From Kingdonia uniflora (taxonomy: Eukaryota > Streptophyta > Magnoliopsida > Ranunculales > Circaeasteraceae), in assembly GCA_014058105.1 (NCBI GenBank), contig JACGCM010001798.1, forward strand, positions 1,991,001-2,055,000: DNA of 64,000 nt, read 5' to 3'. Below the pieces are notes generated by a model. The model ran no database searches. It was not told where the DNA came from and saw only the letters and a program-made list of their open reading frames with translations. Shown piece by piece: positions 22,167-46,002 of this stretch. Every line of letters begins with the position of its first letter. Within the stretch, counting starts at the first letter, position 1. Position numbers and translations under genes: made by a program.

Positions 22167-22169
22167 TTC

Positions 22170-23950
22170 ACTACTAGAAAATGAACCAACAACCACGGTC
22201 TATATTAGTTTTAGCCACGGTGACAATACTAACAAAATTCTACAAACCTAAACAGTGGCCAAACCCCAAAATTCGTGGCTAAAGCCATGTACCTTTGCCC
22301 ATGCTTATCTATACACCTAAGAGAATAACTCATCAACCATTTTTCGATCTCAGCCGTTTGTTACCCATCTCTCGTGAGTCGAGGATTATTTAGGCCGCTC
22401 GAATCTATCTCATTCTTTAAAATTAAGTAAGAAATTTTAAACTTAGATCAAACTTGAAAACTGCCCAATTATCTGCCGATTTAGCCTATATTTTCAGTCA
22501 ACCAACGTTAGTTTTAAGCATTAAAGCCAAATCAAATGGCAAACATCAGTATTTGGTCATCATCACTGCTCCCTCCCCCGAGTCCGAATCCCTCTTCTCA
22601 AATCTTCTGAAATCAATCCTTGTAAAGTGGTCTCCCCTTCTTCAACCCGTGAATAACTCGATGATGATACATCAAGCGTAGAGGAATTCTGTAAAATTTA
22701 ATTGTGAAGCTATGTCTGTATCATCTTATTTTTGATTAAAGGTTTTGATTTGGTTTAATTCGATTGAAGGTCCTGATTTGGTTTTAATTTCAACCTAAGG
22801 GGATTGAGTTTAATTCTCCAGTAATTCTGTTTTTGAGGCAACGAAGAACCATTGTCGTGGAGGGGCCTTAAGTTGAGTGTAGTTTTTGAACTAGGGGATT
22901 TGTTGGCGAGTCGATGGGGGCGATTAACGGGTTGGTCAGAGTGATCAGGGTTTAAGGGAGCTTTCAATGTGTTGATGCTCATATTTATTTTCAACATCAA
23001 TATAATACATATCCATATGTTGGAAGCATGATATCTCTCAAACACATCTATACAAAGAAGTGATGGAATACTGTATGTGTGCAATTTCTTGGATTTAGCG
23101 CTTTCAAAGTTTATGATTATTTCATGATTAAATGTTGTGATTATTAGCATATATTGTTGCATGAGAAACTGTTATTCAAATCATAGATAACAATGAAAGG
23201 TAGAAGCTCCTAGTTCATGTTTGTTAAATTTTTCGTTACATTGTAAATCTATAAAGTACATGTATGCAAAAAACTGAACTTGTTATATTTAATCACTCAA
23301 AAGTGATTTCTTAACTATTATGAATACATACATTTGAAAGTATATCGAATATGTATAAACCTCCAACCTCAAACATCCCCAAAACCCAGACTTGAAGTAA
23401 AACCCAAAGTTGATGAATTTGATGATTGTAGTGTGAATTAGTTTAGGTTTAACTTCGTGATCTCGGATTCAAGTTGAAACTAAAGTTTAGAGTAGAAGCT
23501 CTTATGTTGATGAGAAATTTGGGGGAAATAAGACTAAGAGAAGTTTCGGTCTGAACTATAACAGTGTAACTTTAGGGATCAAAGGTATAAATTTGCAACG
23601 ATGATTTTTACGTGTTTTCATTTCCTAATTTTAGTTATCGTAAGCTTCAAAGTAGAAAATGTACTATTCTTTGTTCCATTTCCTAATTTTGTTACTTTTG
23701 GCATGCATGTTATATGTAATTAAGTTTGACAAAAATCGGTTTTCTGGTACCTCAGTTTTGCATTTTGAATTGTTCAGTAGGTATCCATATGTGAAAAACT
23801 ATTTATATAAGAACATGATTTTAGTAATAAAAAGTGGTAATGTATAGGCGAGATGGACGAGTACTAGAAAGCAAAATGTGAGTTGTTCTGATTGGAAGTC
23901 TTTAACGTATTTATCGATAAATTTGGATTTATTAAGAAAAAATTCTTTAA
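22170..23950. other. Left terminal region of the CACTA-like element
   Basis: Terminal repeat and subterminal GCCACGG/GTGGC motifs within the first ~120 bp, then AT-rich non-coding sequence with only short chance frames. Nothing else recognised. Confidence 0.5.
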
Positions 23951-26097
23951 TGCTAATTTATCAATACTTGCAAAAAAGTGCTCTGGTTCCTTATGAAGAT
24001 GGAGATGTAAAGGTAAAGAGACCTGATGGATCTGAGGAAAAGAGGGAAAAGAGAAGTTTGGATGCAATCCAGTTTGAGACACCTGAGCTGAATTTCATCT
24101 TGGTAATGAGTAGGGTTTGCTTTGAGAAAGTACATATTTTGTTACAGACGATAACTCTTTTATTAGCTCTAATTTACTTTGTGTTTATCCTTTTTTCGCT
24201 TCTCGTAGGAGGAGCAAGACGTTAATGTCTTTGACGATGAGCAACAACAAGTTCTCTCTGGCATACCTCAGTTGGAACTTCCGCTGGTAAAATTTGAAGG
24301 AATATCTTTGATTTTATTTTCTTATAAGTAATGCATATTTTTTATGAAGTAAATGTTATTTCTAAAATATATTGCGTATTTTAAAAGAGTTCGTGTTCGT
24401 GAAAATCATTGTTTCTTTCTTTTTGGTAGTGATGCTAAATATATCTAATGCTCCATTATATTCAAATAAAAATTCCATTTTCATCTGATTTTATTACTGA
24501 AAAGTAAAAGTTTGCCTAGGAATCTCCTTTCTTATATATCTTATTTGCTTGCGGCTAACAAAAATTTGGTTGCTATTTTATTTATTTCTCTTATTTTGTG
24601 GTAACCAAAAAATTTTACTGCTGAAAATTGGGAATCTCATCTCTAATCTAACCTCGTCACTTGATGCATTAATAAAGTTGCGAAGTTAAGGCTACCACAT
24701 AACTTGAATTGGACTCATTTTTCTGTGTATATGTGGTATTTGATACTGTTTCTAGGTGGACCGGTGTATCAACTTTTATATATTTGTATTCATAATTCTT
24801 ACAATGGTCTGGGTCAAAATCCGATTGATTGGCTCTTGTATGTACTTAGTCGTAAGAATATTTTAGATTGGAAGCCATTGATCTTGGGCGTGAATTTTTG
24901 TCTGCAGGGTATTCAAAACGACAATCTCAGTGACATGATTCCATACCCTTATTCAGTTTCAGAATCAGTTTATTCAGTCCAAGACATAAATTTGGACTGC
25001 CATATTCGGGAAGATTCTGGTTCCGCGAAGGAGAAAACATGTGTCCATGCTAGTAAATGGTCTATTTTGGAAGTCAATGAGATTGGATTAAAAATTTACA
25101 TTGGGCCATCCATTGAAGAAGCCCTCCACTTACTTCTTGAAGTTGTTCAATGCCAATAATGTACCGAAAATGATCACTTAATAATAGCTGATGGAAATGA
25201 GCTTGTGGGTTCTATAGATCCCAACTCTTTGTAGTTGCTGCCAAAACATTATCCATTACTGCCTGAGCAGGTTGAACCCACACTGATGCGTCTTAATGCA
25301 GTCTTAGAAATGGAATTTAGAGGCCCTAAGAAGATCACTCAAGTTATTGCAGGGAATTCAAAGGAGAAATCAGAAGGTGTTTATTTTTCACAGATTAGCC
25401 CAGTTCATTTTCAGGAGGTCCACACCCTTGATGTAGATACCTGTCACTCCTTCGAAGTTTTCTTCGGCATACAGACTACAAAGGAATCAGAAACATGTGA
25501 ACAAATGCTTCCAGAAGGCATGGAGAGTTTTTACGAGTCAATTATAAGTCACGAGCCAGCTCATGTGGACGGTTCATTTAAATCCTTACCTATACCTCAT
25601 CTCCCAAATGACAATGAAATATGGTTATTATCTTCCGTTGTGGAGGGGATTCTATCTGATCTGAAGCCGCACCCTCCATCTGCATCTGATGGCATATATT
25701 TAGATTGGCATCTTTTGCAGGAAGATAGATGCAGCAATGAAAATTGTTCCACTTATTGGAACATTTTTGAGGAGATAGATTATATCACTGTTAGATGTCT
25801 CTTAGCAATGATATGTTGGTAATTGACTTCGTTTTCTGGAATGATACACTTAATGGATTATCAAAAAATTTAGAAAGCAAGGAACTACTGAAGTGCCCTC
25901 TTCCTGATCTTTGTCGAAGTCAGTTGTTAATTGACGAAAGCCGAAAAACTGGGAAGATGAAAACTGCTGACAAGGCTCCAGACATACTCAAATGTATTCC
26001 ACAGTTGAATGATCTTGACTTATTCTTAAATCCCCTGAAAGGAACTGCCAGAAAACATAGTACTGAAGCTGAACTTCCAGTTGATTCATTCCCAAAA
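23950..26097 (+). pseudogene. SHOC1: SHOC1-like meiotic crossover gene, captured 5'/middle part
   Basis: Exons: to 24102 (starting about 23950-23966), 24208-24286, and a long exon from 24908. Readable pieces include IQFETPELNFIL, EEQDVNVFDDEQQQ, LHLLLEVVQ, EIWLLSSVVEGILSDLKP, GIYLDWHLLQEDR and LNDLDLFLNPLKG, which match my memory of SHOC1 (SHORTAGE IN CHIASMATA 1), the plant Zip2/XPF-like protein needed for class I crossovers with PTD. Defects: in-frame stops at 25157-25159 and 25232-25234 in the long exon and a frameshift near 25790. At about 26098 the coding sequence is broken by an LRR gene and resumes at 28994. Lies inside the CACTA-like element. Confidence 0.75.
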
Positions 26098-28560
26098 GTT
26101 TGCAATATCTTAATCTTTCTTATGAGGGTTTCGGTGGTAAGCTTCCTCATCAACTAGGTAATCTTTCTAATCTCCATTACCTTAGCCTTAGTGGACTTGA
26201 CATGGTGGAGGCGGTTGACAATCTTGAATGGCTTTCTCATCTTTCTCACCTAGAACATCTTGACATGAGTGGCATAGACCTCAGCAAGGCATCCAATTGG
26301 CTACAGGTGATTAACATGCTTCCTTCTTTATTAGAATTGCGTCTATCATCCTGTTATCTCAATTACTTTCCCTCTCTTCCGTATTATAACTTTACTGCTC
26401 TTGAGGTACTCGATCTGAGTGACAACAACTTCAATTCTCCTCTTCCGGACTGGTTCTCTAGTCTCAACAATCTTCTTTCACTTAGTCTGAGAAGAAATTC
26501 CTTTCAAGGTTCGATTCCTCGTGTTCTTCAGAATTTAACTGCTCTTAGAGTCCTTGACCTTTCTTTCAACTCCTATTTTAACTCAACAATACCCGACTGG
26601 TTTGATAACCTGACTTCGGTCACAAGCCTCAACCTCGGTTACAACTACCTTGAAGGCGAGATACCCAATTTCTTCAGAAATCTTTGCAGATTCGTAGATC
26701 TTGATCTGTTTGATAACAATTTCAAAGGGGACATAACTGGGTTTTTAACAAGTTTATCCCTATGCGTCCCTTCCAGCTTAGAGTCTATCGATTTGGGAAG
26801 GAACAAACTTCTTTCAGGTTCTTTACCAAGTCAGCTCGGAAATCTTATAAATCTCAAGGAACTTAGTCTAGGAGGCAACTCATTTTCTGGTCCTATTCCG
26901 GTGTCCATAGGAGGATTGAGATCATTAAGATTCTTATATCTTAGTAATAATAATTTCAACGGTGTCATCGGTGAAACACACTTTGCCAATTTGACAAGAT
27001 TACAAATTTTATACTTATCCACAAACTCACTGGCTCTCAATGTTAGCTCCGCCTGGATTCCGAAATTTCAACTTACAGAACTAGATCTATCATCCTGTAA
27101 ATTGAAATACCCACAATTCCCCGCATGGCTTCGCACACAAAACTCTCTTCGGAAGATAAGCTTATCTAATGCAAGTATTTCAGATAACGTCCCCACTTGG
27201 GTTTGGAGTTTCTCTTCACAACTCATCTTCTTAGATCTTTCCAACAACCAGATTAAGTGGGAGTTGCCAAATATGTTGCCACGTTATTCTTTTTTGGGTT
27301 CCAACAACTTCCAAGGCCTCCTATCACGTCTAACTTCTAATGTCTATGAACTAACCTCTCCAACAATTCTGTTTCAGGGAATATGTCATTCTTCTTTTGC
27401 AATCCTTTGAATGAAACATATCGACTCTCAGCTCTTGATCTCTCGGACAACCTTCTGGTAGGAGAAATTCCAAACTGTTGGATGCATTTGACGTCTTTAC
27501 GGTTGGTAAATCTGGATAACAATAATCTATCTGGGAATATTCCGAGCTCCATGGGTTCTTTAATTTCATTGAAATCGTTCCACGTGCGCAATAATTCAAT
27601 ATCCGGAGAGCTGCCGTCAAGTTTGCAAAATTGCACACGGTTACGAACCATGGAACTTGGCGACAATGAATTGTCTGGTAGCATACCAGCATGGATCGGA
27701 AAAAACCTGCCAAATCTCGCGGCCCTTGGCTTACGTTCTAATAAATTTAAGGGTGAGATTCCACGTGAACTCTGCGATCTCACTTCTCTCCAAACATTAG
27801 ATGTTGCACATAACAATCTATCAGGAGCCATACCTCGATGTTTTAGCAATCTTAACGCCATGGCTACCATGATAGGCACAAGTTTTGAGCTATATACTCC
27901 ACGTTTTAATGAAAAGATTCTACTGGGTTCGAAAGGATTGTTACTTGAATACACCCGCAGCACTCTTGAACTTGTAACAAGCATGGATCTTTCATATAAC
28001 AGTTTATCCGGAGAGATTCCACAAGAGATAACAAGTCTTTTGAGATTGTGATACTTGCTATTATCCAATAACCATTTCACAGGAAATCCAGAGAAGATTG
28101 GCAACATGGTATTACTTGAAAATCTCAATCTCTCAAGAAACCAACTTGCGGGGAAAATTCCTCGTAGTATCTCAAGGTTAACTTCTTTGAATCAATTGAA
28201 CTTATCATATAACAACTTATCTGGAGAAATTCCAACAGGTTCTCAGCTCCAAACCTTTACCGAGTCGAGCTATGTCAGTAACGACGCCCTTTGTGGGACT
28301 CCCCTTCTGAAGAAGTGCAAAGGAAATGGTTCTGGTGAAACTCCTAATACACAAGCTCAAGATAGTGATGAGTATGACATGATGGAATAGTTTTATGTGA
28401 CTGTTGGACCAGGATTTGTAGTAGGCCTTGCAGGTTTTTGTGCAGCTCTAGTATTTATGGACAAATGGAGGTTAGGTTATTTTCGATTCGTAGAAGATAT
28501 GAAAGACATTTCTGAGGGGCAAACTGGGGAATTTTTGTGTTCCCGGTGCACTTTGTGCTG
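26098..28560 (+). pseudogene. LRR receptor-like protein (EIX/Cf type) inserted in the SHOC1 copy
   Basis: Intronless run of about 25-30 leucine-rich repeats of the plant extracellular type (LxxLxxLxLxxNxLxGxIP), e.g. LRVLDLSFNS, LDLSNNQI, MDLSYNSLSGEIP, NLSYNNLSGEIPTGSQLQTF. It ends with the LCGTPL cap, an acidic spacer, a membrane segment (GPGFVVGLAGFCAALVF, about 28405-28455) and a short cytoplasmic tail at WRLGYFRFVEDMKD. This is the architecture of kinase-less receptor-like proteins that sense pathogen or symbiont molecules at the cell surface. The N-terminal signal peptide and first repeats are missing. Defects: frameshift near 27380, TGA at 28049-28051, TAG replacing the conserved Trp at 28388-28390. 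Pseudogene. Confidence 0.85.
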
Positions 28561-28993
28561 GTGCCGATGTACCTAAGGATACACAGTTGAAAGTGGTAAT
28601 TCTCTTTTCTTTGCATGAACATATATACCATAATTAATCATTTTTGGTAGGATTTGAAGCATTGACTTCAAGGAATGATCAATGAGTTATAGGTTTTTTG
28701 TTTCTTTTTTCAACTTTATCCACTGTACAAATTATTGGTTCTATAATGATATACGCAATTATCCCAGACATAAAGCCATAGTGACATACGCATTAAATTC
28801 TGATGCTTCCTGGTAACTTTTGCGGACTAAGACCCACAAATGATAGATAGCTTTGTGCAGTGTACAAGCGAGATTTGTGGAGGGTCTGAAACTTATTCAT
28901 CCAAACACTAGTTTAAATTCAGTAAAATTTATAGCAAAGCTGGATTTTACTGTAATTTTTTAACCATGGTTTACTTTTGTAACAGTCTTGCAG

Positions 28994-31822
28994 AATAGAA
29001 TGTCTAAGAATGTTAATGATCAAGAGTTTGAAGAACTACTTAGATTTCGTCCCATTGAGGAAAAACAAAAGTCCGCAGTATCTTCGGAACCTGCACATAA
29101 TGTGAAAGCCCGCAGAGTGCCTATTTCAGTTTCTAATATGCCATTTTCCATGAGGTCGGAATGTAGTCAGACCAGAATGCCTTCTTTTCCTAATATAGTT
29201 GTTATTGTGAACACTTTTGGTAAAGAAATGCTAATATCTCGAAGAAGCTCTTATCAAAAGATCTTAGCAATAGATAAAGGAGGAGCTCAAGTTGTGGAAC
29301 GCGAAATTGATTTGCCTGTGGATCTTATCTTTAGTGCCGCAATTTGCTTAGTATGGCATAATTGCATAAACATTGGGGAGAATACGACTACTAAAGAAGC
29401 TTCTTCATGTTTTCCCTTATGCGTTGAGAATATTGCCATAAACATTTTGACGTCACTGAGTTTTGCTTTCAGCAACTGCATTATGGTAATTTGTCTTTCT
29501 GTCTATTAAATCCTTGATTCTGAACTATTTGTTTCCAAATAAAAGGAAGTTATTGAGATTGGCTTTATTGCTCACTTTCTCTGCCTTATCCATCTATCTA
29601 TAAACGATCAACTTCTATATGATAAAAATGACATTCAAATCTGTAAAAGGTAAACCGGCGAAGGCACTGAGACATTAATAGATAGTCTCTCCATGAACAA
29701 ACAATGATGTTTGGTGAAGTGAAAATTTCATTTTCTCTTAATGTAATTGCACTAGAAATCAGAAAGGAAATAATGGTCCAAAGATCAAATTCATGAGATA
29801 CCATAGTGGCCAAGGAACAATAATTTAAATATATAAAGAGAGCTTGAGAAATGTGAAAATCCTAGGTTTATATTCTCAGATAGGACAAAATATCAGACTT
29901 CTTATTTTTTGTATCAAAGTGTACAGTACAAAGATTTGCATTTACAATTTGAATTCAAAATATGTTATTTCTTGCACCTATTACAGTACAAAGATTTTAA
30001 TTCTCTATATCAGTTGCTGAAAGAATAAAGTCAACAAAATTTGTAACCCTGTTTATCTCCTGTTTCTCTTCTAGATCTTCGAAGGGGAAAGCAAATTTCT
30101 CTATTCCATAATGGAATTATCAGATGAACTTTACGCTGCTGCAGCTAGTTTGGGAATAGATTTACAGCTCTCCTGCTCATACTCACCTGAGTTTACTGAT
30201 GAAATTATTCTGAGCTGTATCAATTACAGCATAAAGTTAAATAGAGGTCTCTATCCCAAAATGCTTGACTCGGAATATCTTGCCGAGACTTTTCTTACCA
30301 AGTTTCCATCAATTAGTCCACTCTTAGCTCATGCAATATTATCTTCTGGAAGCAGGCTTGTAGAATTCTTAGAGTGGTCACGTGACCGCAAAATTCAGGC
30401 AATATGAAAGTATAGGGTTTCAGATGAAAGTATTGCTCTGTTTAATGCTCTATGCAAATATGGAGAACAGGAATATTCTAAATCTGGAATGATAGATTGC
30501 TCTTCAGGATCTTCTGTGCCTGACTCAGGAAACAGTAGTTCGAATCTAGAGTTCCCAAGAAAAAAACAAAAGTGTATAGGAAGACCTCCCTCAGCTAAGG
30601 TACCTAGAGTGTACCAGCCACTTGAGTCGTGGATTTCTTCCAAAAGTCACGGCGTCTTGGACGAGAATCACGAGATTGAGATGTTCAAATTTACTCTTAA
30701 TGATGAATTTTTTGAACACATACCTGGGTTAGCTGACGGTATGGTTAATGATTTGGGTTGGAATGGCAAAGCTAAATCTGAGAAGGCAGACTTCATAGGT
30801 GAAGTTATTGACCTTGGTAACACTTCCTTTTTGGGTGAAGATTTCTCACCCATTCCAAGTAATGCATGTTTTTCACCAGAATTCGGAAGAGGTATGTCAT
30901 TTGGAGGCTCTTTAAGTAAAAGAGTTTCACCACCAATACCTTCAAGTAATTGTCCTTCCTACCCGACCTCGGCAGGGATCACTTCGAACTCAGAGAAATC
31001 TTCAAAGGATCATAATCAAATGTTTAATGAAGATTTCTGGGCTGATATGCATATAAAAGATGACAACAAAGATGATATGCCCCTACAGTTGGGAAGACAG
31101 TTTTTACAGGAGGAGATTACTCCAAGGTCTACAAGTTCTTATGGTGGAACACCGTTATCAAATGCTATTCATTCATCAAAGCTACAACGAGGGTCACCCT
31201 GGACAGTTGAGTTTCTTAACAAAATCAAGGAGAAGAGCAGAATGCATCAGAAATCACGTTTATCTGACACTACTGACTCTTGTTACGGGTATCCTAATAG
31301 CGTTGAAAGAATTGCCAAAAGAAAAAGTCCATCTACGCTTGATTGTTACAGATATCAAGGAGGAGGGAGAAATTCCAAGAGGATATTCAAACAAAAGTGT
31401 CAAAAGCAACAACTCATACCACAACTCTTTGGCTCATACAAAAGTGAGAAGGCTTCATGTTCCCTTACTCCTGCATACACCCCCATGGACAAAAGAGCTA
31501 GTCAGGTTTGTCTCAGCTCAACTCTTATTTATTAAACATCTCTAGAGACGTCAAAACACGAACGCCAGCGAGATACAAATAATAAACCTATGATGCATTT
31601 CTCAATGGCATTTGACCACAATGCGTAGGACGTTTATGTGTTTTTTCTTTTGTCTCTAGAGATGTTTAAATTTTTGGTTACAAGCAGTAAGGTAACTGCA
31701 TGAAATTCTAAAGCTTAACGCAGAAATTGCCTTTTGCGAGGATGGGAAAGGAAAAGCAAAGTAAACTGATATGGAGTGTTGGAAAATATCCAGGGTCGTT
31801 GTGGGAAGAGAGACTTAAATGA
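28994..31822 (+). pseudogene. SHOC1: SHOC1-like meiotic crossover gene, captured 3' part to its natural stop
   Basis: Exons 28994-29485, 30075-31505 and 31724-31822, all with GT-AG edges. Motifs: RRSSYQKILAIDKGGAQVVEREI and CVENIAINILTSLSFAFSNCIMIFEGESKFL across the first splice (XPF-nuclease-like core). Then SLGIDLQLSCSYS, TFLTKFPSISPLLAHAILSS (helix-hairpin-helix-like) and EFLEWS, a Ser-rich tail, and a last exon ending WSVG...ERLK. One in-frame TGA at 30405-30407 interrupts an otherwise open 1.4-kb exon; CGA to TGA by C deamination is the likely cause. Reading frame is otherwise well kept, suggesting fairly recent capture. Confidence 0.8.
31534..31667. repeat. Small MITE with perfect 16-bp terminal inverted repeat
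   Basis: AAACATCTCTAGAGAC at 31534-31549 is repeated as its exact complement at 31652-31667, separated by ~100 bp of non-coding DNA. It sits in the last intron of the SHOC1 copy. TA/TTA at both edges could be the target duplication but cannot be separated from the repeat. Confidence 0.6.
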
Positions 31823-31910
31823 AGTTCAGGATGTTAATTTTTTTACTGGTAAAAACCCTAACATTGTACTTATTGTATTTCCAAGTTCATGTTACTTTAT
31901 TACGTATTAA

Positions 31911-31982
31911 GAGCATCTCCAAAGCCTTGCTATCCAAAATGCGGGCGAAGGTCTTAATTTGAAGTTAGAATTTGAGATGCTC
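31911..31982. mobile_element. Very short (72-bp) Harbinger-type MITE
   Basis: Starts GAGCATCTCCAAAG and ends TTTGAGATGCTC (10-bp perfect terminal inversion), flanked by TAA at 31908-31910 and 31983-31985. The same end sequence is used by the elements at 12647 and 53374. Confidence 0.6.
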
Positions 31983-32524
31983 TAACCAGTTCCGTCTTTT
32001 TTGCTACAGTATACCCGGCATTATTCTCACTGCTTGGCGAGCTCTTGTAATTTGTAACTTTGTATATCATACAAATATATCATGTCACAAATCCTAGCTT
32101 TAGCAAGGTTTTTCTTCAACATATCTTTACAAGTCATTACATTTTCGATAAAGTTGCTGCAACCTCTATATTGCATCCATGACCTATTGACCTGTCACTT
32201 ATCTCCTGTTTTAGAACTACAATTGAAGAAATTTGGTCCTAGAGTAGATGTTTCATAACTTTTATAGCTCCTACTATTATTAGGTAGATTTATGATGTAG
32301 AGTAAAATCAATTAGGTAGTAAAGAAAATATGAGAATTCTAAGTAATGTCCTACTTTTTAAACCTTGACGAAATATGAGAATTCTAAGTAATCAATTAGG
32401 TTTACTATGCATTAGGGGCAATCCTACTCTTTTCTTTACTTTCCTACTTTTATAAATCTAATTGAATTAGAATTCTAAATAATGTCCGTAAGAAAATATA
32501 AGAGCAGCTAATGATATAAATCAC

Positions 32525-33337: not shown

Positions 33338-33849
33338 AAAAAAAAAAAATAAAAAAAAAAAATGATTATAGTAGTTTTCATGTTAATTAGGTATAATAAA
33401 TCAATAAATAATCTTATTTATATAACTATATACATTATTTACTCGTATGTTTAAGCCAGAATGCACTAATTGCCAAGGAATATGTTGCCAGTAATTTTAG
33501 TATGGATTTTGTTTGCTCAATAAAAGGTACCTTAAATGTTACAAAGGAATAGTTGCAGTACAACTCATGCTATTAATTGATCTGCAACTTTTCGCTACCT
33601 TATTTGTGGTTATTTGTGGTTATTTGGTACATTAATAACAGTAACTATTTTCATGTTTATTATAAGGTTCTCAATATTATGCCTTTTAATCATACATGTG
33701 TATGTGAATATCCTTTATGAGCTTTCATTTGGTTGGTACGTTCAGCATTGAATCCATAGAATCACTGAACAAAAGGTACTATTCTTATTTTGTTATGTCA
33801 ATTACCCTTTGTCTCATTTTGTCTATCTTTTATTTTATATCATTCTTCT

Positions 33850-35474: not shown

Positions 35475-35570
35475 AATTGCATTTTACCTATTAATATAAT
35501 TTAAATTTATTATTAACAAAATAATTATATATCATAAACGTTTTATTTTTATTTATTATTATTTTTGCAG

Positions 35571-36022
35571 TCTCTAGAAGATGAACTTGATAGTCCTAGA
35601 TCCCCAACTATACCAACTTTGGAAGGCATTCTTACTAAGGTATACAATATAAATAATACACAATATGATACAATTTGTTGCTTACAATTTTATAACACTA
35701 CTAACTGCTATATCTATATGTAAATTTTTACTAGGAAATGCTTGAAAATGACACAACCACTGTTGCTTCAGAGAGAGAACCTACAAATGAAAACCCTATC
35801 TTACAAAAGCATGTGAATCGTAAACTTTTTAGCGTTACCGAAAAGTCTGGTAGAACTGCGTTTGATAACATGGAAGATGTTGAAGATATCAATGATGATA
35901 CCTCAAACGATAGATCCAACAATAATGTTGAAATGGATGATAAGGAAGAAAACATAAACGAAGAAGAGGACAAACTAAATATTATTTTTATTGTAATTCA
36001 ATATTTTATGATTTTCAGATAA
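35571..36022 (+). other. Two exon-like frames, possibly the tail of a Helitron-associated protein
   Basis: 35571-35638 (between AG and GT) reads SLEDELDSPRSPTIPTLEGI and is followed after a short intron-like gap by a frame from 35738 reading HVNRKLFSVTEKSGR with a very acidic end. The style resembles C-terminal tails of the RPA-like proteins encoded by plant Helitrons, but this is only a resemblance. Confidence 0.3.
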
Positions 36023-36270
36023 TCTATATATTTTTCCAACAAAGATTGACTATATTTCTTTCATGTTCTATATTACACCAATTCTTATTTAATAATAATG
36101 TTTCTCATGTAAAAATTAATATATTATACAATCCTTTATATTTTGTTTAGATAAAAAATTAAAAACCAAAACCAACTTCAAATATACCTTCGACACTTAT
36201 TGCCATTTTCCAATAAATACAAATACTATTCACACTTAAAGTCTAAATATTTTTTGAGTATAACGGTCTA

Positions 36271-36290
36271 GCATGCGCGTTAGCGCGTGC
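36271..36290 (+). repeat. Helitron-like terminal hairpin candidate
   Basis: GCATGCGCGTTAGCGCGTGC can form an 8-bp stem with one mismatch and a 4-base loop, and is followed at once by CTAA, which fits the CTRR end of Helitrons. A near copy, in the opposite orientation with similar outer flank (TGCTCGTA), is at 54046-54063. If real, the Helitron would run from before 32525 to about 36294 and enclose the L4 and NET1 fragments. Confidence 0.4.
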
Positions 36291-36603
36291 CTAAGTGCTC
36301 GTAGTTCGTGGCCAAATAACTAGCTAAAACGCGGGATACAAAATTTCATATTTCTATTTCCCTCGTTTCTAAACTCTTTCATCCCCCGTTGTGCTTTAAG
36401 ATTTGTGAAGCAAATTTCTCCCAAAAATCTTCTATCATTTCTCTCTCCGAATCTCTAATCTCATAAGTTTCAATTTATGATTTCTAATCTTCATCTAATA
36501 AGTTTCAATTTCTGATTTCCAATCTTCGAATCTCCAACTTCAGATCATCCACTTTGGGTTTTAAGATCCATGACATCTCTCTCTTGGGAGCAACTACCTA
36601 ATC

Positions 36604-36738
36604 TCTGTGAGAGCAGTTAAAGCAGTTGCACCAAGACCTATTGAGAAAGCCCCAAAATTTTACCCAGCTGATGATGTGAAGAAACCATTGGTGAACAAGA
36701 GGAAACACAAACCCACCAAGCTCGATCAGGTTCGATTT
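36604..36738 (+). pseudogene. RPL6: Cytosolic ribosomal protein L6 exon fragment
   Basis: Reads RAVKAVAPRPIEKAPKFYP then ADDVKKPLVNKRKHKPTKL, the N-terminal half-domain of eukaryotic 60S protein L6, and ends at a donor-like GT (36739). Upstream CT-rich sequence (36310-36600) may be its 5' flank. Only this exon is present. Confidence 0.75.
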
Positions 36739-37225
36739 TTGAGAGATTTAGTTGTTACTCCAATTAGGGTTTCAAATTCATCGTTAGGGTTTATTGTAGT
36801 ATTTATTTATGATAAAATTCATGTTGGTGAAACTCAAATTGAATTGAAATTGAATTTTGTGTTTTTTTTTGGGGCTCTGGAACATTTTGTGTTGACTACA
36901 TAGATACTTAGTGAATGCTTGTTCAGGTTTGGGATTTGTATATTTTGGTTGAAAATTAGGTTCTTATAATAAAAAATCGATCTTTTTGTTACACATTTCA
37001 CTGTGAGGAAAGTTAGATGAAATTTTAGTAATGGGGTTTATGATAATTTTTTTTAGATATTTACCTAGCAATTTTGTTAGTAATTGTATTGCAGAGTGAA
37101 ATTTTAGCAATGGGGTGTTCATACTGATGATTTAGTGTAGAAATGTATAGTTTCGTTAATGATGATAAGTAGTGACTAACTGAGAGCTTACAACTACTGA
37201 AACCATACTTATCTTCTCTTGGCAG

Positions 37226-37430
37226 TTGAGTACACATGGCGCAAAATCGCAGAACAAAACCGAAGATTTTAGTGACTGGTACTCCAGGAACGGGGAAAAC
37301 CACCATGTCGTCTCTGCTTGCTGATGCTGCTCAGCTTCGCCACATTAATGTCGGAGATGTAGTAAAGGAGAAGAACTTATACGATGGTTGGGATAAAAAT
37401 TTAGAGTGTCACTTCATCAACGAAGACCTG
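37226..37430 (+). pseudogene. Adenylate kinase isoenzyme 6 (AK6/Fap7-like), first coding exon
   Basis: Acceptor AG at 37224-37225, ATG at 37236, donor GT at 37431. It encodes 65 residues with the P-loop GTPGTGKTT (residues 15-23), then NVGDVVKEK and [15 protein letters not shown], the signature of the small nuclear/nucleolar adenylate kinase-ATPase used in 18S rRNA maturation. The exon itself has no defect, but no later AK6 exon (zinc-free lid, C-terminal helices) follows before unrelated fragments, so it is a truncated capture. Confidence 0.8.
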
Positions 37431-38103
37431 GTTTGTACTCGTTAAAAAACCTAATCCTTGCCTTTTCCCTATTTTCTTTTTATCAGTGTTTTAAGTTTTG
37501 TTTGTATTGTATTTTCGATTTTACTTCGTGTTACTTGATATAGAATATTAGTGTACGCAGTTAAGTTTTATCGAATATAATTCAAGAGTAAATTGAATAG
37601 TTTGCTTATTAGTTTATAGTTTTGGGATATCAATATGCGGTAGGCGGAGGATAAATTATATTTAACATTTAGTAGAAAGTAAACAAGTCTCAGAAATCTT
37701 TCTCCCATATATCTGAGATGCAGTCAACTTCTCAGTGCACTATCAGCGAGTCTGGAAACAGAACAGGTAAATATATTTCATATGAACTTAACCTCTTATT
37801 AGTAACTTTGATAGTTTACTAAGTCGTCATCAATGTGAAGCAATCATGAGGGAAGTCAATAGAAGGGAGAAGCAAGCTGGAAGATTTTGACACTTACATG
37901 AAGGTAACAATTCTTAAAACAACCATAGTATATACATAAGTATCTCATTAGCTGATTTGACACTGTGTAATAACAAGCCGTTTTCATTAAAGGACTAGAG
38001 GGGACACTTCAACCAGATTTCATTATGAAGGTAATGATTACTTCCACCAAAGATGAAATTTGGGATACCTTATCTGTTTTGAGTCATTTTATATCATAAT
38101 TAA

Positions 38104-38476
38104 CCATGGACTCAGATCCTTTTTACGCTCTCTTAGAAGCTTTTCGTTTCGAGGCACATTGGTTACCATTTTGCAAGATATTCAACATGGAGCCTAGAGC
38201 GCCAAAAGTTTATTTTGCCGAGAAATCTGAACCCTGTAATGACCGTTAATGGCTAGCCATGAAGGTATGTGTTATTCAGCCTAAAAAAAATACACTAGTA
38301 CAAAATTACGTTATTCTTTGAATGTTCTTTTTCAGAAACTATATGAAGAAATGAAACAAAGGTTCGAAGCAGAAGTCAAACGTGGTACGATTTCTGAAGA
38401 ACTAAGGAAATCACATAAAAGATTCTCTGAATGGAGCTCCAGAGTTAGAAAAGGCGATCATCAAACAATTTTTCAG
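38104..38476 (+). pseudogene. Cellulose-synthase-like (CslE/G-type) exon fragments
   Basis: Two exons, about 38104-38264 and 38336-38476, with GT-AG edges. They read LLEAFRFEAHWLPFCKIFN, MEPRAPKVYFAEKSEP and KLYEEMKQRFEAEVKRG, then ELRKSHKRFSEWSSRV and DHQTIFQ, matching the plant-specific region between the first and second catalytic aspartates of CslE/CslG glycosyltransferases. TAA at about 38248 interrupts the first exon. Membrane segments and catalytic domain are absent. Confidence 0.65.
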
Positions 38477-38669
38477 GTACTTATTTTGTAATTCGAGTTA
38501 AAAGCTTAGAATTTGAGTTCATGGACTTAATTACCTATGTGGTATTTTATGGTTTTACTTGTTGTACTTGTTGTATCAATGGGATTTCAGGACATATTTG
38601 CTCTTATGTGGCTCTTATGTTGTACATATTCGAGCTTTGGCAGTGGTTGCTCTTATGTGGCTTATTTCG

Positions 38670-39051
38670 AATAAACCTCCTGGCCTAAATCAAACATTAT
38701 GGTCTGCCCCTCCGGCGACACCGCTGAGGGGTATATTAGAGTTAAGGTCCGGGAAGATGGGTATGTCAGCAATACCCTGTAAGGCGTGACACGGGGTTTA
38801 AGCTTATAGGAAACAAACATGGAGTAAACATAAGCCGCGGCCTCGGCGTTAGCCGATGAGCCAGCGACATGGGGTCTAAGGGTGAGGGTGTAGAGATGGT
38901 TTGAGATTGTGGTGTTATCAGTGAAGGATGTGTAGAGGTGGTAGTGATAGTTGGAGTTTGGAGAGTGTGTTATGGTGATGGTGGTGTAGATGATGATGAA
39001 GAAGAGAGAAGTGGCTATGATTAGAGTGGTTGTTTGGGTTTGTTTAGACAT
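38670..39051 (-). pseudogene. AMP1-like glutamate carboxypeptidase II, N-terminal fragment
   Basis: The minus-strand frame from ATG at 39051 reads MSKQTQTTTLIIA, a signal-anchor (LIIATSLFFIIIYTTITI), then NHLYTLTLRPHVAGSSANAE, YVYSMFVSYKLKP and VLLTYPSSRTLTL, to the edge of the retrocopy insert. The anchor plus RPHVAGS region is that of plant membrane carboxypeptidases of the AMP1/NAALADase-like family (shoot meristem, cytokinin-related in Arabidopsis). Only ~127 residues of ~700 remain and the catalytic domain is missing. It is the only captured gene on the minus strand. Confidence 0.7.
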
Positions 39052-39817
39052 GGGTGCTTGTTGGGGTTTGAAGGTTGGGCTCATGGAGTTTGGTAACTTT
39101 GGTGTAAGTTTTATTTTAAAAATTGGAGAAAACAAGAAGATAAAGCTTGGACATTTGAATATTTGATTAAATGTCTCTGAGAAATAAGACTTAGTTTTAG
39201 TCATACTAGCACTAGTGAACCCAAAGGGTGTCAATGGGTTCACTGGCTTTTTAACTTTGAGTCCCATGGGGATGGCGGTGCCGGTGGTGGTGGCAGTGGC
39301 GATGGGGTGATTACTAGGCGGGGTTTTTTTGTAGTACCAAACATTTAAATCGAACTTAATAATAGGTATTCGTTTTTTTTTTTTCAGTTTGAGGACTGGG
39401 CAATTTTGGATATTTGGGTACTCATTCATTGTGAATTTTGGGAAGTCTCTGAAATGTAGAGATCAAAATTGACTGCCTGGTGATGGACTGATGGGGGTGG
39501 AACATCGGGGGAAACCAGTAGAGTACGTTAGGATGATGGGTCACGGCACGAGTTTGTTTCTGTCTCTGGGACTCTATACTTCATTTCTACCTTAAATAAT
39601 GGTATCCGCCTGCTACTGGGCACTGGCCTGCCGCATCCTACCTGAGCTACCTCTGTTGCAATGCCTCATGTTCAAGTTGAGATCACAAAATGTCACGAGT
39701 AACAGATCACGCGTGAAACGTCTAGGGGTCGATCCTATACTAATAGTATGGGCATCATTTCATTGGCATTCGAGTACATTTTCACTGGGCCTATCTATGT
39801 ATGGGAAAACATCTTAG

Positions 39818-40684
39818 GTGAGGAGTGCCATGAGGCCAATGACATGTTCCAGTTCTCCTCTTGCCTTGCCGGCCTGGAAATTGTTCCATATGAGTATTTA
39901 CAGGGAGAAGGTAAATATACTACCATTAAAAGGTTTTATAACCATAGAAGGGGCAGGAGTTGATAAAACAATTGTACAATGGGGTGACACAGCTAAAACA
40001 TTTGGAGCTACAGGCCAACCAATTGGAACTTTCAATTCTGCAACTTTCGCTATTAATTCTGCTTATTTCATAGTAAAGAACATCACATTCAAGAATACAA
40101 CATATCTTCCAGTAAAAGGAGCTAGTGGAAAGCAAGCAGTGGCATTTAGGATATCAGGGGATACAGCAGCTTTCTTGGGTTGTAGAATTTTAGGTGCTCA
40201 GGATACACTGTATGATCATCTTGGAAGGCATTATTACAAAGATTGCTAGATTGAGGGCTCTGTGGATTTCATTTTTGGTAACGGGCTTTCACTTTTTGAG
40301 GGATGCCATGTACATGCAATTGCGCAGAACGCGGGGGCCCTAACAGCCCAAGGGAGGGAGAGTCTCTTAGATGACACAGGGTTTTCGTTTGTGAATTGTA
40401 AGGTGACAGGGTCTGGTGCTCTTTATCTTGGCAGAGCTTGGGGAACCTTTTCTAGAGTGATCTTTGCTTACACATATATGGATAACATTATCATTTCAAA
40501 AGGCTGGTATAATTGGGGTGATTCTAATAGAGAAGTGACTGTGTTTTATAGACAATACAAATGCACTGGTCCTGGAGCAAACTATGCTGGAAGAGTCTCA
40601 TGGGCAAGAGAACTAACTGATGAAGAAGCCATACCTTTTATTTCATTGAGCTTCATTAACGGATCAGAGTGGATTAAATTCTAA
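39818..40684 (+). pseudogene. Pectin methylesterase (pectinesterase) retrocopy
   Basis: The frame reads [57 protein letters not shown], a TAG at 40247-40249 where Tyr is expected, then [38 protein letters not shown] and [20 protein letters not shown], ending TAA at 40682-40684. Catalytic elements [13 protein letters not shown] and LGRAW are all present. No introns, although plant genes of this class have several, so this is a processed copy. The 5' end (signal peptide and first ~80 residues) is scrambled. A 3' UTR and poly(A) follow. Broken by at least one stop. Confidence 0.85.
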
Positions 40685-40816
40685 TTGGTTCACCTCATTA
40701 ACTAATCTTTGTAAAGTTTATGTTAATAAGATTTCTGATTTACGACGATCTTTTTCAAAAAAAAAAAAAAAAAGTGGCTTATTTCGCTAGTTTTCGTGCA
40801 TGTATTCCCTTCCCAG

Positions 40817-41020
40817 CAGAGGAAAGTAAAAGGAACTCAATGGAAATCAGGTCAGCAATATTTCTTTCCAGGCTCTTCTTATAACTTTTGTTTCAGTCAA
40901 TCTAGTTTCTAGTGTTTACTCCAAATGTTATGTAAGGCCAAGTCTTAAGTTTTTCATTTCAGGTTTTCACAAACTCCAGCTGACGTTCCTTTACAAATAA
41001 ACAACAAGGCCAACTCCAAC
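40817..41020 (+). other. Two unassigned exon-like pieces
   Basis: Between AG and GT, 40817-40850 reads AEESKRNSMEIR across the splice into about 40962-41021 (FSQTPADVPLQINNKANSNK). The frame stays open over both. I do not recognise the gene. It may belong to the same captured fragment as the Csl exons or to yet another gene. Confidence 0.3.
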
Positions 41021-41939
41021 AAGGTAAGTCTGGATTGTAGCTATGACTACTTTGAAAAGGGTTATGACTCATGAGACAATTGAACAATGATCCTTAATAT
41101 GTTCCTGTTAAAATAAATTTACCTGTTTCGGATGACTCCAAATTTTTTTCTTTCTTTCTTTTTTGTATTTTTTTTTGGGGAAATAGTAATTTATTGATGG
41201 ATCTTAAACAGTACAAGGGGAGGACATGCACCTGAGCCCCATGAAAAAGTCTTTTAACACTGGCCAACTGCATGAAATCAGTTTCAAGCGGCTGAGTTTT
41301 TTTTTTTTACATATGTTAGGTTCTATTTTGCAGTATTTCTCGGCTTTTGGGCTGCTTACTTTCTGTCTGTTTTGATTTGGTACATTTTTTTAATTATTAT
41401 TAATGTAGCCAGAGCAATTGAACAAGATATTTGAGCTATGTGGAGCTCCTAATGAGGAGAACTGGCCTGGGGTTTCCAGGATACCTTGGTATAATAATTT
41501 CAAGCCAACAAGGCCACTGAAAAGGCGTGTGTGGGAGTTTTTCAAACAGTGAGTAGTCCATTCCCTTCTTTCCCCCAAGCAATTGTTTGTGGGCACGGCT
41601 TTTGGACATGACATTGAATGGATACGTATTCTTTGTGCCTGGTTAGTTTGATGACCACTTATGTTTTGCATCACAGTTTTGACCGCCATGCTTTGGAGTT
41701 GTTGGATAAAATTCTGACCCTTGATCCATCTCAGGTATCTCATTTGTGAAATAGACATAGTTTCTTTATTATGTTTATAAGACTCAATGTGTTTGTTACG
41801 TTGATAGGATTAAATATCTTTGCGCCCTATTATTGGTGGTTTAATATACACTACTTCTAGTTTAGTATTTGTTGACTAAGCAGATTTCATAACATAGACT
41901 AGCAAAAACGAAAAAGAAAAAGATTTAAATGCATAACAC

Positions 41940-42387
41940 CTATGTAACATGGACACTCCATATTCCAAAAAATATCCGTGTCCAAACGTGTCGGACACTC
42001 GGACACACCGACAATCGTGTCGACACTCCAACGGACACTTCTTACTTAGATCATAACATTTTTGACATAGCTTTTAGAAAGTTTTCAATTCTTATACATG
42101 TTATTCAACCATACTAACTAGTATCATGGTTTTTTGTTTGTTATTAGTCGTAAATTAACCCATAAGTTAATATAACCCATAAGTGTTGGGACTTGTTTGT
42201 TATTAGTCGTAAAAATATGTCGTAAATTAACCCATAAGTGTGTTAGATAGGTTAAGTAACCAATAGAAAATAAGAAATAAATTTTTTACAGCCGTGTCCC
42301 CGTTTTTACATATTTTTGGGTCGCCGTGTCCGACACCCCGTACCCGTGTCCGACATCGACACCCGTATCCGTGTCATTGTTACCTAG
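41940..42387. mobile_element. hAT-type MITE, copy 1
   Basis: 448 bp with inverted ends CTATGTAACATGGACACTCC (left) and the complement of CTAGGTAACAATGACACGGA (right), flanked by the perfect 8-bp duplication CATAACAC (41932-41939, 42388-42395). The interior is rich in GTGTCCGACAC-type words near both ends. It is the same family as 60679-61074, in opposite orientation. Confidence 0.85.
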
Positions 42388-42395
42388 CATAACAC

Positions 42396-44235
42396 ACTCG
42401 TATCGGCCCTCTTTTTAATGAACAGCCATCCAATGGATACAAATAATTTAGAATTTTTGGTTTTGGGCCAAAACATATTGATGAGCTCTAGTTTCTCAAG
42501 TAACATATAATTAGTACGGGACAAATCAAGGACTTTAACCATATCAATCCTTGCACGTTCTTTCTGTTGTGGACATTACTGTGATAATGGATGTTAAGGA
42601 CACTTTATTGAATAGGTAGAGTTTGTTAATTGGTTGCTTATGCATGCATAAGCCTCATAGAGAGATATAGCGTCCAATTCAGATCCGTGCAATAAGCCAT
42701 GCATGCAGTCAACATTGGCCTTTAATAGGTATTTCAGTGGGGTTTTGTAGGCAAAAGCTCCATTCGATACTTCCCAACACACTCATATTTGGCTTCTTAT
42801 GCACTTGCGTTGTATATTAGGCCTAAGAATCTAATCCTCAGTTGAATATTTCAAGCCAATATTTCCAACTCTTAATGCAATTATATCTCCATGCGGAGTA
42901 TGTAAATAACAACACATTTTCTATGTTAATGTTACTTTAATTAAGGCTTTTGCATTAAAAAATAAAAGATGCTTTCAAAACCACATCGGAACATGAAATT
43001 TAAGCTAGGATTGGCTAAGAATCACAGCTGTGAATAATTTTTATATTGTTATCTTTATCAGATCACAAAAATTTGGCCATTTAATGGGAAATTATTTGAT
43101 ATCAAAGAAGCTAATTATTTATTAAATTAAATGTTAAATGAAAAAAATACTACCGGTCATGACGTCACCCTATGCATTGTAGAGTAATCCAGTGCATAGC
43201 CTAATCGAATATTCTTGCTGAGTTTTTATGGCATTCACATTCAACAAGGCTATGGCATTTCTCTTAGAGATGGAAGGATGAATCCTTGTCAGGAATGCAA
43301 CCATTCATGCTTCACTTTATCCTCTGACATCTTATTTGAATGAGTATGTAGTTCTTTGAAGGCAGGAATATGAGAAGGAATATAATAAAAAGAACCTGGT
43401 GAGTTGGAGACTGGCATATATTGTTATGCCTTAGAGGTCTTCTTTTTTGGAAACTATACTTGAATTCAACGCCGTAGTCACTTTAGCGTGATGCTAAGTT
43501 ACGACCGCCTCCAACCTTTCTGATTCTTTCTACTCCCAACTGAAACCTTTGTCTCCGAAGAATTACACTCTTATTCACCAATCGAGTCATGTACAGATAG
43601 AAAACCAAGCAATAATGGTTTCACGCTCAGGCCAACGTTTGTCCTTCAAATTCCTCGAGAATTGTGGATGATGCTGTAACAAAGGATCTAAGGTGCATTT
43701 TTGAATTGGCTTAACAGGGGATTATTGCAGGTTGGTGTCACTGGTATTCGATGTCTTCATCGATAAATTTAATTTCGTATATATAGCTTCTTTGTTTTTT
43801 AGTCATTTTCCATTAAAGGCCAGACACTACTTTTTGGATATTTCCTGGACAGATACTCAAACCAATAGGAGCAGCTAGGGTCAAATTCTTAATCTCAAGA
43901 GTTAATGTCATGTTAGAATTACTAAAACTATTTTATATTCTGCATTCATGTTTCTTTTAGGCATTAAAATCATAAAGTCATTCTCTACCCGTTCTTTTTT
44001 CATAATTTTATGCTTTTGTCCAAAAGTTCTAGTCTTCCAAGTTCCAAGTGAACATTATATTCACTTTATTCCCATGCAAGCTAGGTTGTTGCACTTTAAG
44101 ATATTCCTAGGATTTTCTGTCCTATATCATAGTTGTAATTTTATATTTTTGTAGTACTGGTATTCACTGGTTTCCCTGTTACTCTTTCTGCATAAATTTA
44201 TGTTTTCTTTTTTTGTTTTTGTGCCCTATCTTCAG
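42396..44235. other. Remainder of the CDKC fragment intron
   Basis: AT-rich non-coding sequence; a minus-strand frame at 42594-42782 and a plus-strand frame at 43948-44154 show no domain. Nothing else recognised. Confidence 0.4.
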
Positions 44236-44778
44236 AGAATATCTGCAAAGGACGCACTTGATGTAGAGTACTTCTGGGATGACCCCTTGCCTTGTGACCC
44301 CAAGAGGTATGATCTATACTATTAAATGGCTCTATGTATTCTTTTGAGTCCGGCTTATGGCATTTTTAACATGTAGGTTCAACTTTTGACCTTTTGTGAG
44401 AGATTAAGATGCAAAAATCTGGGCCCTAACCGTGGTAGTGTCATCGAGATGGACATTCATGACACATCTCATGATCTCAATGACAATCACTTGAGATTTG
44501 AATCTTGATCTCTTTTGAGATGTTTAAATCACTTTTTTTTCGATTTTTAACAATTGTTGATTCTACAATATAACTTTGCACCACAGCTTACCAAAATATG
44601 AATCGTCTCACGAGTTCCAGACAAAGAAAAAGAGTCAACAACAGCGTCAGCATGAAGAAATGGCAAAGAGGCAGAAACTACAACACCCTCCACAGCATGC
44701 ACGCTTTCCTCCTATACCCGCATGTTACAATGGTTGTTGTTGTAATGTGAATCAAGTGATATTTTTACCATTTGATAG

Positions 44779-45453
44779 GTGTTGAATCACTTAACATATG
44801 CATCTCCTATGTCCTACTTGAGAAGGTTAAACTCACCCATAGGCCGTGAAGGTAAAATCTCTTTTACTCACATGATATCTTGTTTCAGTAAGTTTTGTTT
44901 TGCACATTCACTGCCCTATTTTACTTTTTTTCTTTTTCCTCTTCGACTAGGGAAATTGGCAAAACCTCGTCAGCTGCATAATTCACAGTGGGGAATGATG
45001 TACCCTGCGGGGACACCAGAAGGACAAGTACTATTCTGCATAATATGTACATATGTGGTTACCTTTACTTTTTATATGTTTCTATTAACCTTTCTGCTCT
45101 CTTTGTTTCTTTTATAATGATAGGCTTGTGGATTGGTGAAGAACCTTGCTTTGATGGTCTATGTAACAGTAGGATCAGCAGCAAATCCAATTTTGGAATT
45201 CTTAGAAGAGTGGAGTACTGAAAATTTTGAGGTACTTTCTTCAAAGATATACGCATATTGATTTAATTATTTCTTGTTCTTTATTATATACTCTTTTTTA
45301 TTTTATTTTATCAACATTCTTTCTTTTTCCATCTAGAAAATTTCCCCTGCAGTTATTGATCAAGCGATCAAATTTTTTGTCAATGGTTGCTGGGTTGGCA
45401 TTCATCGCAGTCCTGATCTTTTGGTGAAGACCTTGAGGTAGCTGAGGCGACAG
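44779..45453 (+). pseudogene. NRPB2: RNA polymerase II second-largest subunit (NRPB2) fragment
   Basis: Exons 44779-44851, 44951-45027, 45124-45231 and 45337-45453, GT-AG edges with frame preserved. They read [20 protein letters not shown] then [55 protein letters not shown] and [20 protein letters not shown]. This is the fork-loop region of the RPB2 subunit, about 10 percent of the protein. TAG at 45439-45441 stands where Arg is expected. It ends ~180 bp before the right subterminal repeats of the CACTA-like element. Confidence 0.88.
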
Positions 45454-45619
45454 GTTTTATTCTCAATCCTTGGGAATTTTGGTCTATCACTTACCAACTA
45501 GACTAGTTTCATTTTTAAGAGGTTTATCTTATGTATGGTGTATTTGGAGAGGGCTATTTAAGAGGTTTTGAGTGAGTGTAATGATTGTACAAATGTGAAA
45601 TATATATATACATTTTTTT

Positions 45620-45999
45620 TTTTATAAAATGACTTTAGCCACGGCTAGTTTTGTAGTAAATAGCGAGTATTAGCCACAAATGAAACCATTGTAATTAACA
45701 TGCATTAGCCACAAATATTATGGTGGTGATTGACAGGCATTAGCCACGGGATATTATGTGAGAAATTTCGTAGGCAATGGAGCCATTTGCCACGGTTTAT
45801 AATGTATCCAATGTTCATTAATAGCCACGAAATAGCCACGGTACTACCTGTGGCTATATCTGATTCATTGGCCACGGTCAAGTTCGTGCTTGAGCATTAG
45901 TCACACTACCAGTTGACACGACCCTGGGCACGGGTGTACTCGTGGCGAATGGTATTAGCCACGGCCAGAGCAGTGGCCATTGACGCTTATTCTAGTAGT
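45620..45999. repeat. Right subterminal repeat region of the CACTA-like element
   Basis: At least nine copies of GCCAC(G/A) or its complement, often as TTAGCCACGG, in 380 bp (for example near 45637, 45672, 45707, 45745, 45788, 45832, 45860 and 45957). The terminal ATTCTAGTAGT follows. This spacing and orientation mix is the usual CACTA subterminal array. Confidence 0.75.
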
Positions 46000-46002
46000 T
46001 TC

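Follow-up and report, generated by a model that had tools for sequence, protein, structure and literature searches.

The soybean CACTA transposon Tgm-Express1, 5.7 kb in length, contains exonic as well as intronic fragments from five unrelated host genes (PMC1947982), and the Tpn1 family of Ipomoea nil comprises 339 non-autonomous CACTA copies (PMC5105172). Pack-CACTA elements have similarly captured multiple loci (PMC8903248), and a review relates a proposal of capture by neighbouring insertions and aberrant excision, mentioning also gene-carrying Helitrons such as those of maize (PMC13317346). A study of CACTA elements in Chenopodium indicates that nested elements can be taken for a new element (PMC8978399). 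Here, we describe a 23.8-kb insertion that holds pieces of about a dozen genes in Kingdonia uniflora (contig JACGCM010001798.1, positions 1,991,001 to 2,055,000, forward strand; this whole stretch of 64,000 nucleotides is referred to as the window and its first letter is position 1). It consists of nested layers, namely a base CACTA element, a Helitron-type element, a patch from a leucine-rich repeat (LRR) receptor-like gene, a retrocopy and a small element, which were very probably put together stepwise.

The comparison with the described systems holds for the portions of the cited papers drawn on here. Like Tgm-Express1, the base CACTA of Kingdonia carries five gene pieces, but Tgm-Express1 is presented as one element of five fragments, whereas the Kingdonia insertion reaches 23.8 kb, over half of it nested mobile elements. 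The first-pass annotation of this stretch had considered so many pieces unusual for one CACTA; about five are left for the CACTA itself, a number equal to that of Tgm-Express1. Tpn1 is likewise a non-autonomous CACTA family, whose members share conserved ends and enclose captured host sequence; however, Helitron or retrocopy cargo goes unmentioned in that portion of its report, and no transposase-bearing member is tied to the Kingdonia family. In Pack-CACTA elements capture is attributed to neighbouring insertions and aberrant excision, whereas here much of the cargo came through nesting of other elements. No paper found by title under Kingdonia with transposable elements or CACTA dealt with this CACTA family, and none was, by title and abstract openings, about a composite of CACTA, Helitron and gene fragments of such kind. 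The composite is built from known kinds of elements by at least four routes and is not a new kind of system.

The outer insertion and its CACTA family

The outer insertion, its target and the stretches of the base CACTA are as follows.

22170-45999, plus strand: whole insertion, non-autonomous CACTA-type, terminal inverted repeats ACTACTAGAA / TTCTAGTAGT, family form CACTACTAGA...TCTAGTAGTG
22167-22169, no strand: target duplication TTC, left copy
46000-46002, no strand: target duplication TTC, right copy
18874-21084, minus strand: pol remains of the target retrotransposon, with reverse transcriptase at 20824-21084 and a Tf2-type SH3 domain in 18874-19239
18010-18579, minus strand: presumed long terminal repeat (LTR) of the gypsy-type target, exact ends presumed, partner at 47068-47628
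47068-47628, minus strand: presumed partner LTR, a repeat of 18010-18579
22170-22307, plus strand: base CACTA, left end (sister copies align over 22170-22294), separated by the Helitron-type insertion from the remainder
36302-38669, plus strand: base CACTA, second stretch, with eL6, AK6 and cellulose-synthase pieces
36610-36726, plus strand: eL6 piece, identified by tools
37206-37439, plus strand: AK6 piece, identified by tools
38085-38249, plus strand: cellulose-synthase piece, identified by tools
40774-41939, plus strand: base CACTA, third stretch, with the cyclin-dependent kinase (CDK)-like piece
41388-41546, plus strand: CDK-like (CDKC) piece, weak match, E 4e-4
42387-45999, plus strand: base CACTA, last stretch, with the NRPB2 piece and the right subterminal GCCACGG array (45638-45964)
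44749-45456, plus strand: NRPB2 piece, three introns kept

The insertion opens with ACTACTAGAAAAT at 22170 and finishes with ATTCTAGTAGT at 45999, TTC standing on either side. When the empty site was rebuilt by joining 600 bases of each flank and retaining a single TTC, one minus-strand frame was open over the junction, with 33 residues before it, W at the junction and 111 residues after it (...KANGNTSDRC-W-KLYPELRPKEEK...). Because the rejoined flanks restore the open frame of a gypsy-type retrotransposon, the two ends belong to one insertion, and 22170-45999 is confirmed as a single CACTA-type insertion into that retrotransposon. The matched ends and TTC duplication of the first-pass annotation are thus both present, and the possibility it had raised that they belong to different elements is excluded by the restored frame. 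On the target, the reverse transcriptase (E 2e-16) and the Tf2-type SH3 domain (E 1e-12) lie on the same strand, the frame beside the junction gives a weak match to aspartyl protease that stays below the cut-off, and the gag-side frame had no match. The frame carries stops further from the junction, so that the retrotransposon was already decayed. Its presumed LTRs are 92-93% identical in ungapped blocks and 90% with gaps (Kimura two-parameter distance, K2P, 0.086).

Terminal inverted repeats of the CACTA...TAGTG kind, a 3-bp duplication and subterminal repeats place the insertion in the CACTA (En/Spm) superfamily. The left C is present and the right terminal G absent, with T there instead; the duplication can accordingly be written as TTC, or as TTT with a shortened right end, both giving the same empty site. 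Eight exact copies of GCCACGG occur in the window, where shuffles give 1.04 on average and never more than 4; TAGCCAC occurs 13 times, against a shuffle mean of 3.88 and at most 9. Since six of the eight GCCACGG copies fall at 45638-45964, the array is a right-end feature: of the subterminal arrays noted at first, that of the right end holds, and the left end has one copy, at 22214, in a region interrupted by a later insertion 138 bp from the end. As had also been noted, no transposase is readable: a six-frame Pfam search with X at stops found no transposase domain at E 0.01 across 22170-45999. With no Transposase_21-type domain in six frames the insertion is non-autonomous, which does not exclude it from the CACTA superfamily. 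An Rfam search returned no match.

Sister copies, for which a search with the ends had been proposed, exist in the genome (a draft assembly of 1.0 Gb in 2693 contigs). The 13-base CACTA end occurs 443 times against 184 for its reversed control, a large yet noisy signal. With 22170-41900 as query, the best 28 of 1660 candidates were scored and gave ten sister CACTA loci (C1456, C547, C2318, C2176, C2412, C117, C235, C137, C2442 and C265). All ten lack 22308-36301: they match the left end and resume at 36302-36315 with a gap of about 25-60 bp, a junction that was inspected at base level in eight. Nine also lack 38670-40773, skipping from 38667-38669 to 40774-40776, and the tenth, C137, is unmatched beyond that place. 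Five sisters were stitched and none holds either segment. Both ends were seen in four of them, of 8047 bp (C547), 7510 bp (C2412), 7544 bp (C265) and 6223 bp (C117), the right end of the fifth, C1456, being unmatched. The terminus CACTACTAGA...TCTAGTAGTG is found in four of the five, and C precedes ACTAC in seven of the eight left ends inspected. The base CACTA is an element of about 6-8 kb carrying the eL6, AK6, cellulose-synthase, CDK and NRPB2 pieces.

CACTA copies are modular, some of them stopping or starting at 36843/36881, 37664-37696, 41247 or 44720, which suggests that the pieces were gained one by one or swapped within the family. DNA resembling the NRPB2 piece (44720-45478) was scored at 40 places including the window, the best of 186 candidates; beside the window, 16 are 87-94% identical (ten of these also match the CACTA right end), 13 are 73-78% identical and 10 are short matches of 86-91%. 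These three tiers suggest that mobile NRPB2 pieces form at least two families, and an intact NRPB2 parent could not be distinguished among the 40 scored places. The minus strand of 40774-45999 had no match among solved structures.

Segments of other origin within the CACTA element

The remaining segments have their own borders.

22308-36301, plus strand: Helitron-type element, 14.0 kb, 5' end TCTATACACC after A, 3' hairpin GCATGCGC-GTTA-GCGCGTGC followed by CTAAGTGCTCG and then T
26090-28505, plus strand: LRR receptor-like gene segment, replacing 38 bp of the Helitron-type element
30075-31535, plus strand: SHOC1-like piece (C-terminal region of plant SHOC1, name presumed), part of GIB67_026109
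32695-33234, plus strand: C-terminal remnant of a Helitron helicase, matched best by Helraiser transposase 7lcc (E 8e-48), Pif1_2B in Pfam
33874-34002, plus strand: plastid ribosomal protein uL4c piece, E 4e-8
34210-35504, plus strand: coiled-coil piece, first labelled NET1 (unconfirmed), with sub-cut-off Pfam coiled-coil matches only
38670-40773, plus strand: processed retrocopy, in which antisense LAMP1/AMP1 exon 1 with its upstream region precedes spliced pectinesterase and a poly(A) tail
38657-38669, no strand: 13-bp target duplication GTGGCTTATTTCG, left copy
40774-40786, no strand: 13-bp target duplication GTGGCTTATTTCG, right copy
41940-42386, plus strand: small inserted element, 447 bp, 9-bp duplication GCATAACAC

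The segment at 22308-36301 is a distinct Helitron-type element, whose own family is spread over the genome. Gene-carrying Helitrons have a TC 5' end, a 3' hairpin, insertion between A and T, a helicase remnant and several gene pieces, and all these features recur here. At the 5' end, TCTATACACC is preceded by A in all five copies compared (the window, L012, L013, L028 and L054), with differing flanks. The 31-base 3' terminus has 263 genome matches with at most three mismatches against none in the control. Eleven copies were compared at this end, namely L009 and the first exact ones. With the window itself set aside, they are 62-100% like the window over the 40 bases upstream and 17-42% over the 40 downstream, and the base after the end is T in eight of the 11. 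Both ends are also present in C1183, a further copy whose flanks join as A|T, with no target duplication. The hairpin has an 8-bp stem that closes 11 nt before the 3' end. A Pfam search of the element found no Rep domain, and of the helicase only the C-terminal remnant is present.

As for its cargo, the SHOC1-like piece resembles 12 unnamed proteins at 29-36% identity, plus two of Kingdonia; SHOC1 is the name we presume for it, the relatives being unnamed. The NCBI gene model GIB67_026109 (634 aa) maps to 29000-31819, inside the Helitron-type layer, and is a gene model built on the cargo of this element. The coiled-coil piece breaks off at 35414 in the window copy and continues in C1183, C1745, C2086 and C2184.

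The LRR segment at 26090-28505 is missing from four other Helitron-type loci (C1975, C781, C1183 and C2086). In its place, C1975, C1183 and C781 have a near-identical stretch of 38 bp, of which C2086 retains the start, with a further deletion beyond. Its borders show a 3-nt filler, TCC, on the left and a 3-bp overlap, ACA, on the right, and the segment, a later addition to the Helitron-type element, looks like the product of break repair with a copied gene segment. A transposon insertion was considered and ruled out by the replacement of the 38 bp and by borders made only of filler and short overlap. The LRR gene loci C135, C2294, C540 and C863 differ from the window segment by K2P 0.11-0.13, so that the true donor may lie outside the compared loci.

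The pieces of the carboxypeptidase LAMP1/AMP1 and of a pectinesterase (pectin methylesterase, PME), both identified by tools, are one RNA-borne event. Indeed, 38670-40773 has lost its introns, ends in A17 (40757-40773) and is flanked by a 13-bp duplication, and processed retrocopies made by long interspersed nuclear element (LINE)-type machinery have target duplications of about 7-20 bp. The site is empty in the four sister CACTAs inspected, which hold a single copy of GTGGCTTATTTCG, with substitutions in two. The parent locus is C1709:284247-289089, of which five stretches are contiguous in the window, four GT...AG introns (1671, 111, 566 and 405 bp) having been removed. The carboxypeptidase gene GIB67_027895 (LAMP1/AMP1-type) matches C1709 at 100% and the window piece at 92%. 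Since the segment is a spliced and polyadenylated retrocopy, both pieces arrived together via RNA, which implies a source RNA that started in antisense inside the carboxypeptidase exon, ran through the shared upstream region and was spliced along the pectinesterase. The two parent genes, one of LAMP1/AMP1 type and one for a pectinesterase, are arranged head to head at C1709:283901-289600. A Pack-MULE, suggested by the long duplication, was ruled out by the lack of terminal repeats, the poly(A) and the removed introns; twin priming or template switching is unneeded for the inverted AMP1 part, as head-to-head genes and one read-through RNA explain the order.

Finally, C547 and C265 show the empty site of the small element at 41940-42386, and a relative of 89-94% identity in three blocks lies on the opposite strand at 60670-61082. 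The small element may be Mutator-like: elements of that kind combine a target duplication of 9-11 bp with terminal inverted repeats, and the repeats here are weak. As a side observation, nine of the ten tool-identified pieces lie on the plus strand, in CACTA and Helitron-type layers alike, the carboxypeptidase being the exception.

Order of the layers and rival explanations

The layers, their borders and duplications, the loss of introns and the sister copies are directly visible in the assembly, and the history that we regard as highly probable would run as follows. A non-autonomous CACTA of about 8 kb, already containing eL6, AK6, cellulose-synthase, CDK and NRPB2 pieces probably captured as DNA, would have inserted into the gypsy-type retrotransposon. 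The 14-kb Helitron-type element would then have landed 138 bp from the CACTA left end, at this copy only, bringing the SHOC1-like, helicase, plastid uL4 and NET-like pieces, and the LRR-receptor segment, presumably patched in by break repair, would have come along with it. A LINE-type reverse transcriptase may have inserted the copy of the spliced, polyadenylated read-through RNA that crosses from antisense LAMP1/AMP1 exon 1 to the pectinesterase, and the small element with the 9-bp duplication would also have inserted; these additions would all postdate the CACTA landing. The divergences agree with an order in which the gypsy-type element came before the CACTA and the CACTA before the Helitron-type element, to judge from about 0.043 for each presumed LTR, a terminal branch of 0.0195 for the window CACTA (star-like, weakly resolved tree of 10 sequences) and about 0.012 for each of the Helitron-type copy and its nearest scored relative, C1459 (K2P 0.025). 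The retrocopy differs from its parent by 0.038, part of the parent being under constraint.

The first-pass annotation had seen a single CACTA that captured all dozen pieces as DNA, which would amount to transduplication. One pair of CACTA ends and one target duplication do enclose everything, the NRPB2 piece keeps three introns, all GT...AG, and CACTA elements with several captured genes have been published; against this, the 14-kb and 2.1-kb segments are absent from the sister CACTAs and bear signatures of their own, that is Helitron-type termini with 263 matches of the 3' end for one, and for the other exons that were spliced, a poly(A) tail and a target duplication of 13 bp. Capture of everything by one CACTA is therefore very improbable; it is refuted for the Helitron-type and retrocopy segments and stands for the eL6, AK6, cellulose-synthase, CDK and NRPB2 pieces. 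What survives of that annotation is a single bounded insertion with many unrelated pieces, the Helitron-type, LRR and retrocopy segments having come separately. Ten of its twelve named pieces were identified by tools, CDK weakly, the name SHOC1 being presumed and the label NET1 receiving no tool support. Its argument that kept introns mean uptake as DNA applies to NRPB2 but not to the AMP1/PME segment, and the alignment of pieces to their parents that it had proposed succeeded for the retrocopy, at C1709, but not for the CACTA-borne and Helitron-borne pieces.

Alternatively, the composite might have been assembled elsewhere and moved into the gypsy-type element as one 23.8-kb CACTA unit, the nesting amounting to cargo loading. 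In its favour, the composite retains the two CACTA ends together with the subterminal array, and the divergences only bound the order: they make the Helitron-type piece younger than the separation between this CACTA copy and its sisters, which does not date the entry into the gypsy-type element. Against it, the window is the one place in the genome where the 19-base CACTA-Helitron junction is matched exactly. Up to two mismatches add 13 matches, against 8 for the reversed control, and the three of these inspected by eye were no CACTA border, two being unrelated and one another Helitron-type copy. Moreover, none of the other scored CACTA copies has the Helitron-type element or the retrocopy. 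Loss of the terminal G of a CACTA, as at the right end here, may also impair excision. Such a transfer is unlikely, and we hold it equally doubtful that the whole composite moves, or is able to move, as a single CACTA unit and that CACTAs gain cargo largely as landing sites for other gene-carrying elements such as Helitron-type elements and retrocopies. If this were true, CACTA elements would later mobilise what had landed in them, and one transposase would shuffle cargo taken up through RNA and by several DNA routes. An artefact, in which unrelated repeats were joined in a draft of 2693 contigs, is the least probable explanation of all, as every junction except the two LRR borders coincides with the terminus of an element or with a target duplication, and joining the flanks restores the retrotransposon frame.

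Several observations weigh against the stepwise history or its parts. For the Helitron-type element, the base after the 3' end is C in three of 11 copies (two of them with identical flanks), and the stability of the hairpin is modest (z -1.73, 8 of 200 shuffles being equally or more stable). The textbook 3' terminus of Helitrons is CTRR. The window and its exact copies end in CTCG instead, and CTCA, CTTG, CTTA, CTGG and CTCC occur among the matches listed; because of this terminus the element is named Helitron-type and not canonical Helitron, and it also differs from gene-carrying Helitrons in that the copy sits inside a CACTA. For the base CACTA, target duplications of sisters are exact in one of four (C265, AAA/AAA), C547, C2412 and C117 agreeing at two of three bases only, and most branch supports of the CACTA tree are weak. 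No intact parent could be located for the pieces borne by the CACTA or by the Helitron-type element, so that individual capture breakpoints stay undefined. CACTA transposases (PF02992) are plentiful in the genome (150 scored of 1081 candidates); despite this, no autonomous CACTA with the ends of this family was found, and the helper transposase for which a search had been proposed did not emerge, no transposase-bearing element being tied to the family. Among the matches listed, none of the 150 transposase places lies within 20 kb of the 13-base ends (shared contigs, compared by eye), and six transposase loci of ~3.6 kb each show no CACTA-like ends, where those of a full-length element would fall outside. 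The divergence of the retrocopy alone fails to place it after the CACTA insertion. Lastly, the genome searches score the best candidates only, which limits absences accordingly, and the sister search left the window's own locus unlisted and alone cannot exclude a second composite.

Surroundings and meaning of the composite

Two similar minus-strand genes (13718-15345 and 49808-51210) flank the retrotransposon with its nested insertion. They are 79% identical over their main block, each gives a helix-loop-helix match in Pfam, and they look like a tandem duplication split by that retrotransposon. Beyond the presumed LTRs there is a further pair of direct repeats (17318-17708 and 48347-48713, 82%), whose order does not suit one simple LTR element. 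A tandem array of a 48-bp unit is found at 53518-53672 (3.3 copies, 92% matches).

Multi-gene transposons are usually credited to one capturing element. Here, the main layers have sister copies in the genome, by which the locus can be resolved into its parts, and the layers yield a relative chronology. Counting by terminal repeats alone would give about twelve captures by one CACTA, when about five is nearer. Four routes of gene uptake are met within one pair of ends: probable DNA capture in the CACTA family, carriage by the Helitron-type element, probable patching by break repair, and reverse transcription of a spliced read-through RNA. As the published gene model GIB67_026109 lies in the Helitron-type layer, the annotation of this genome consists in part of transposon cargo. 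The composite is real and well preserved, and makes a good case for dissecting routes of capture.

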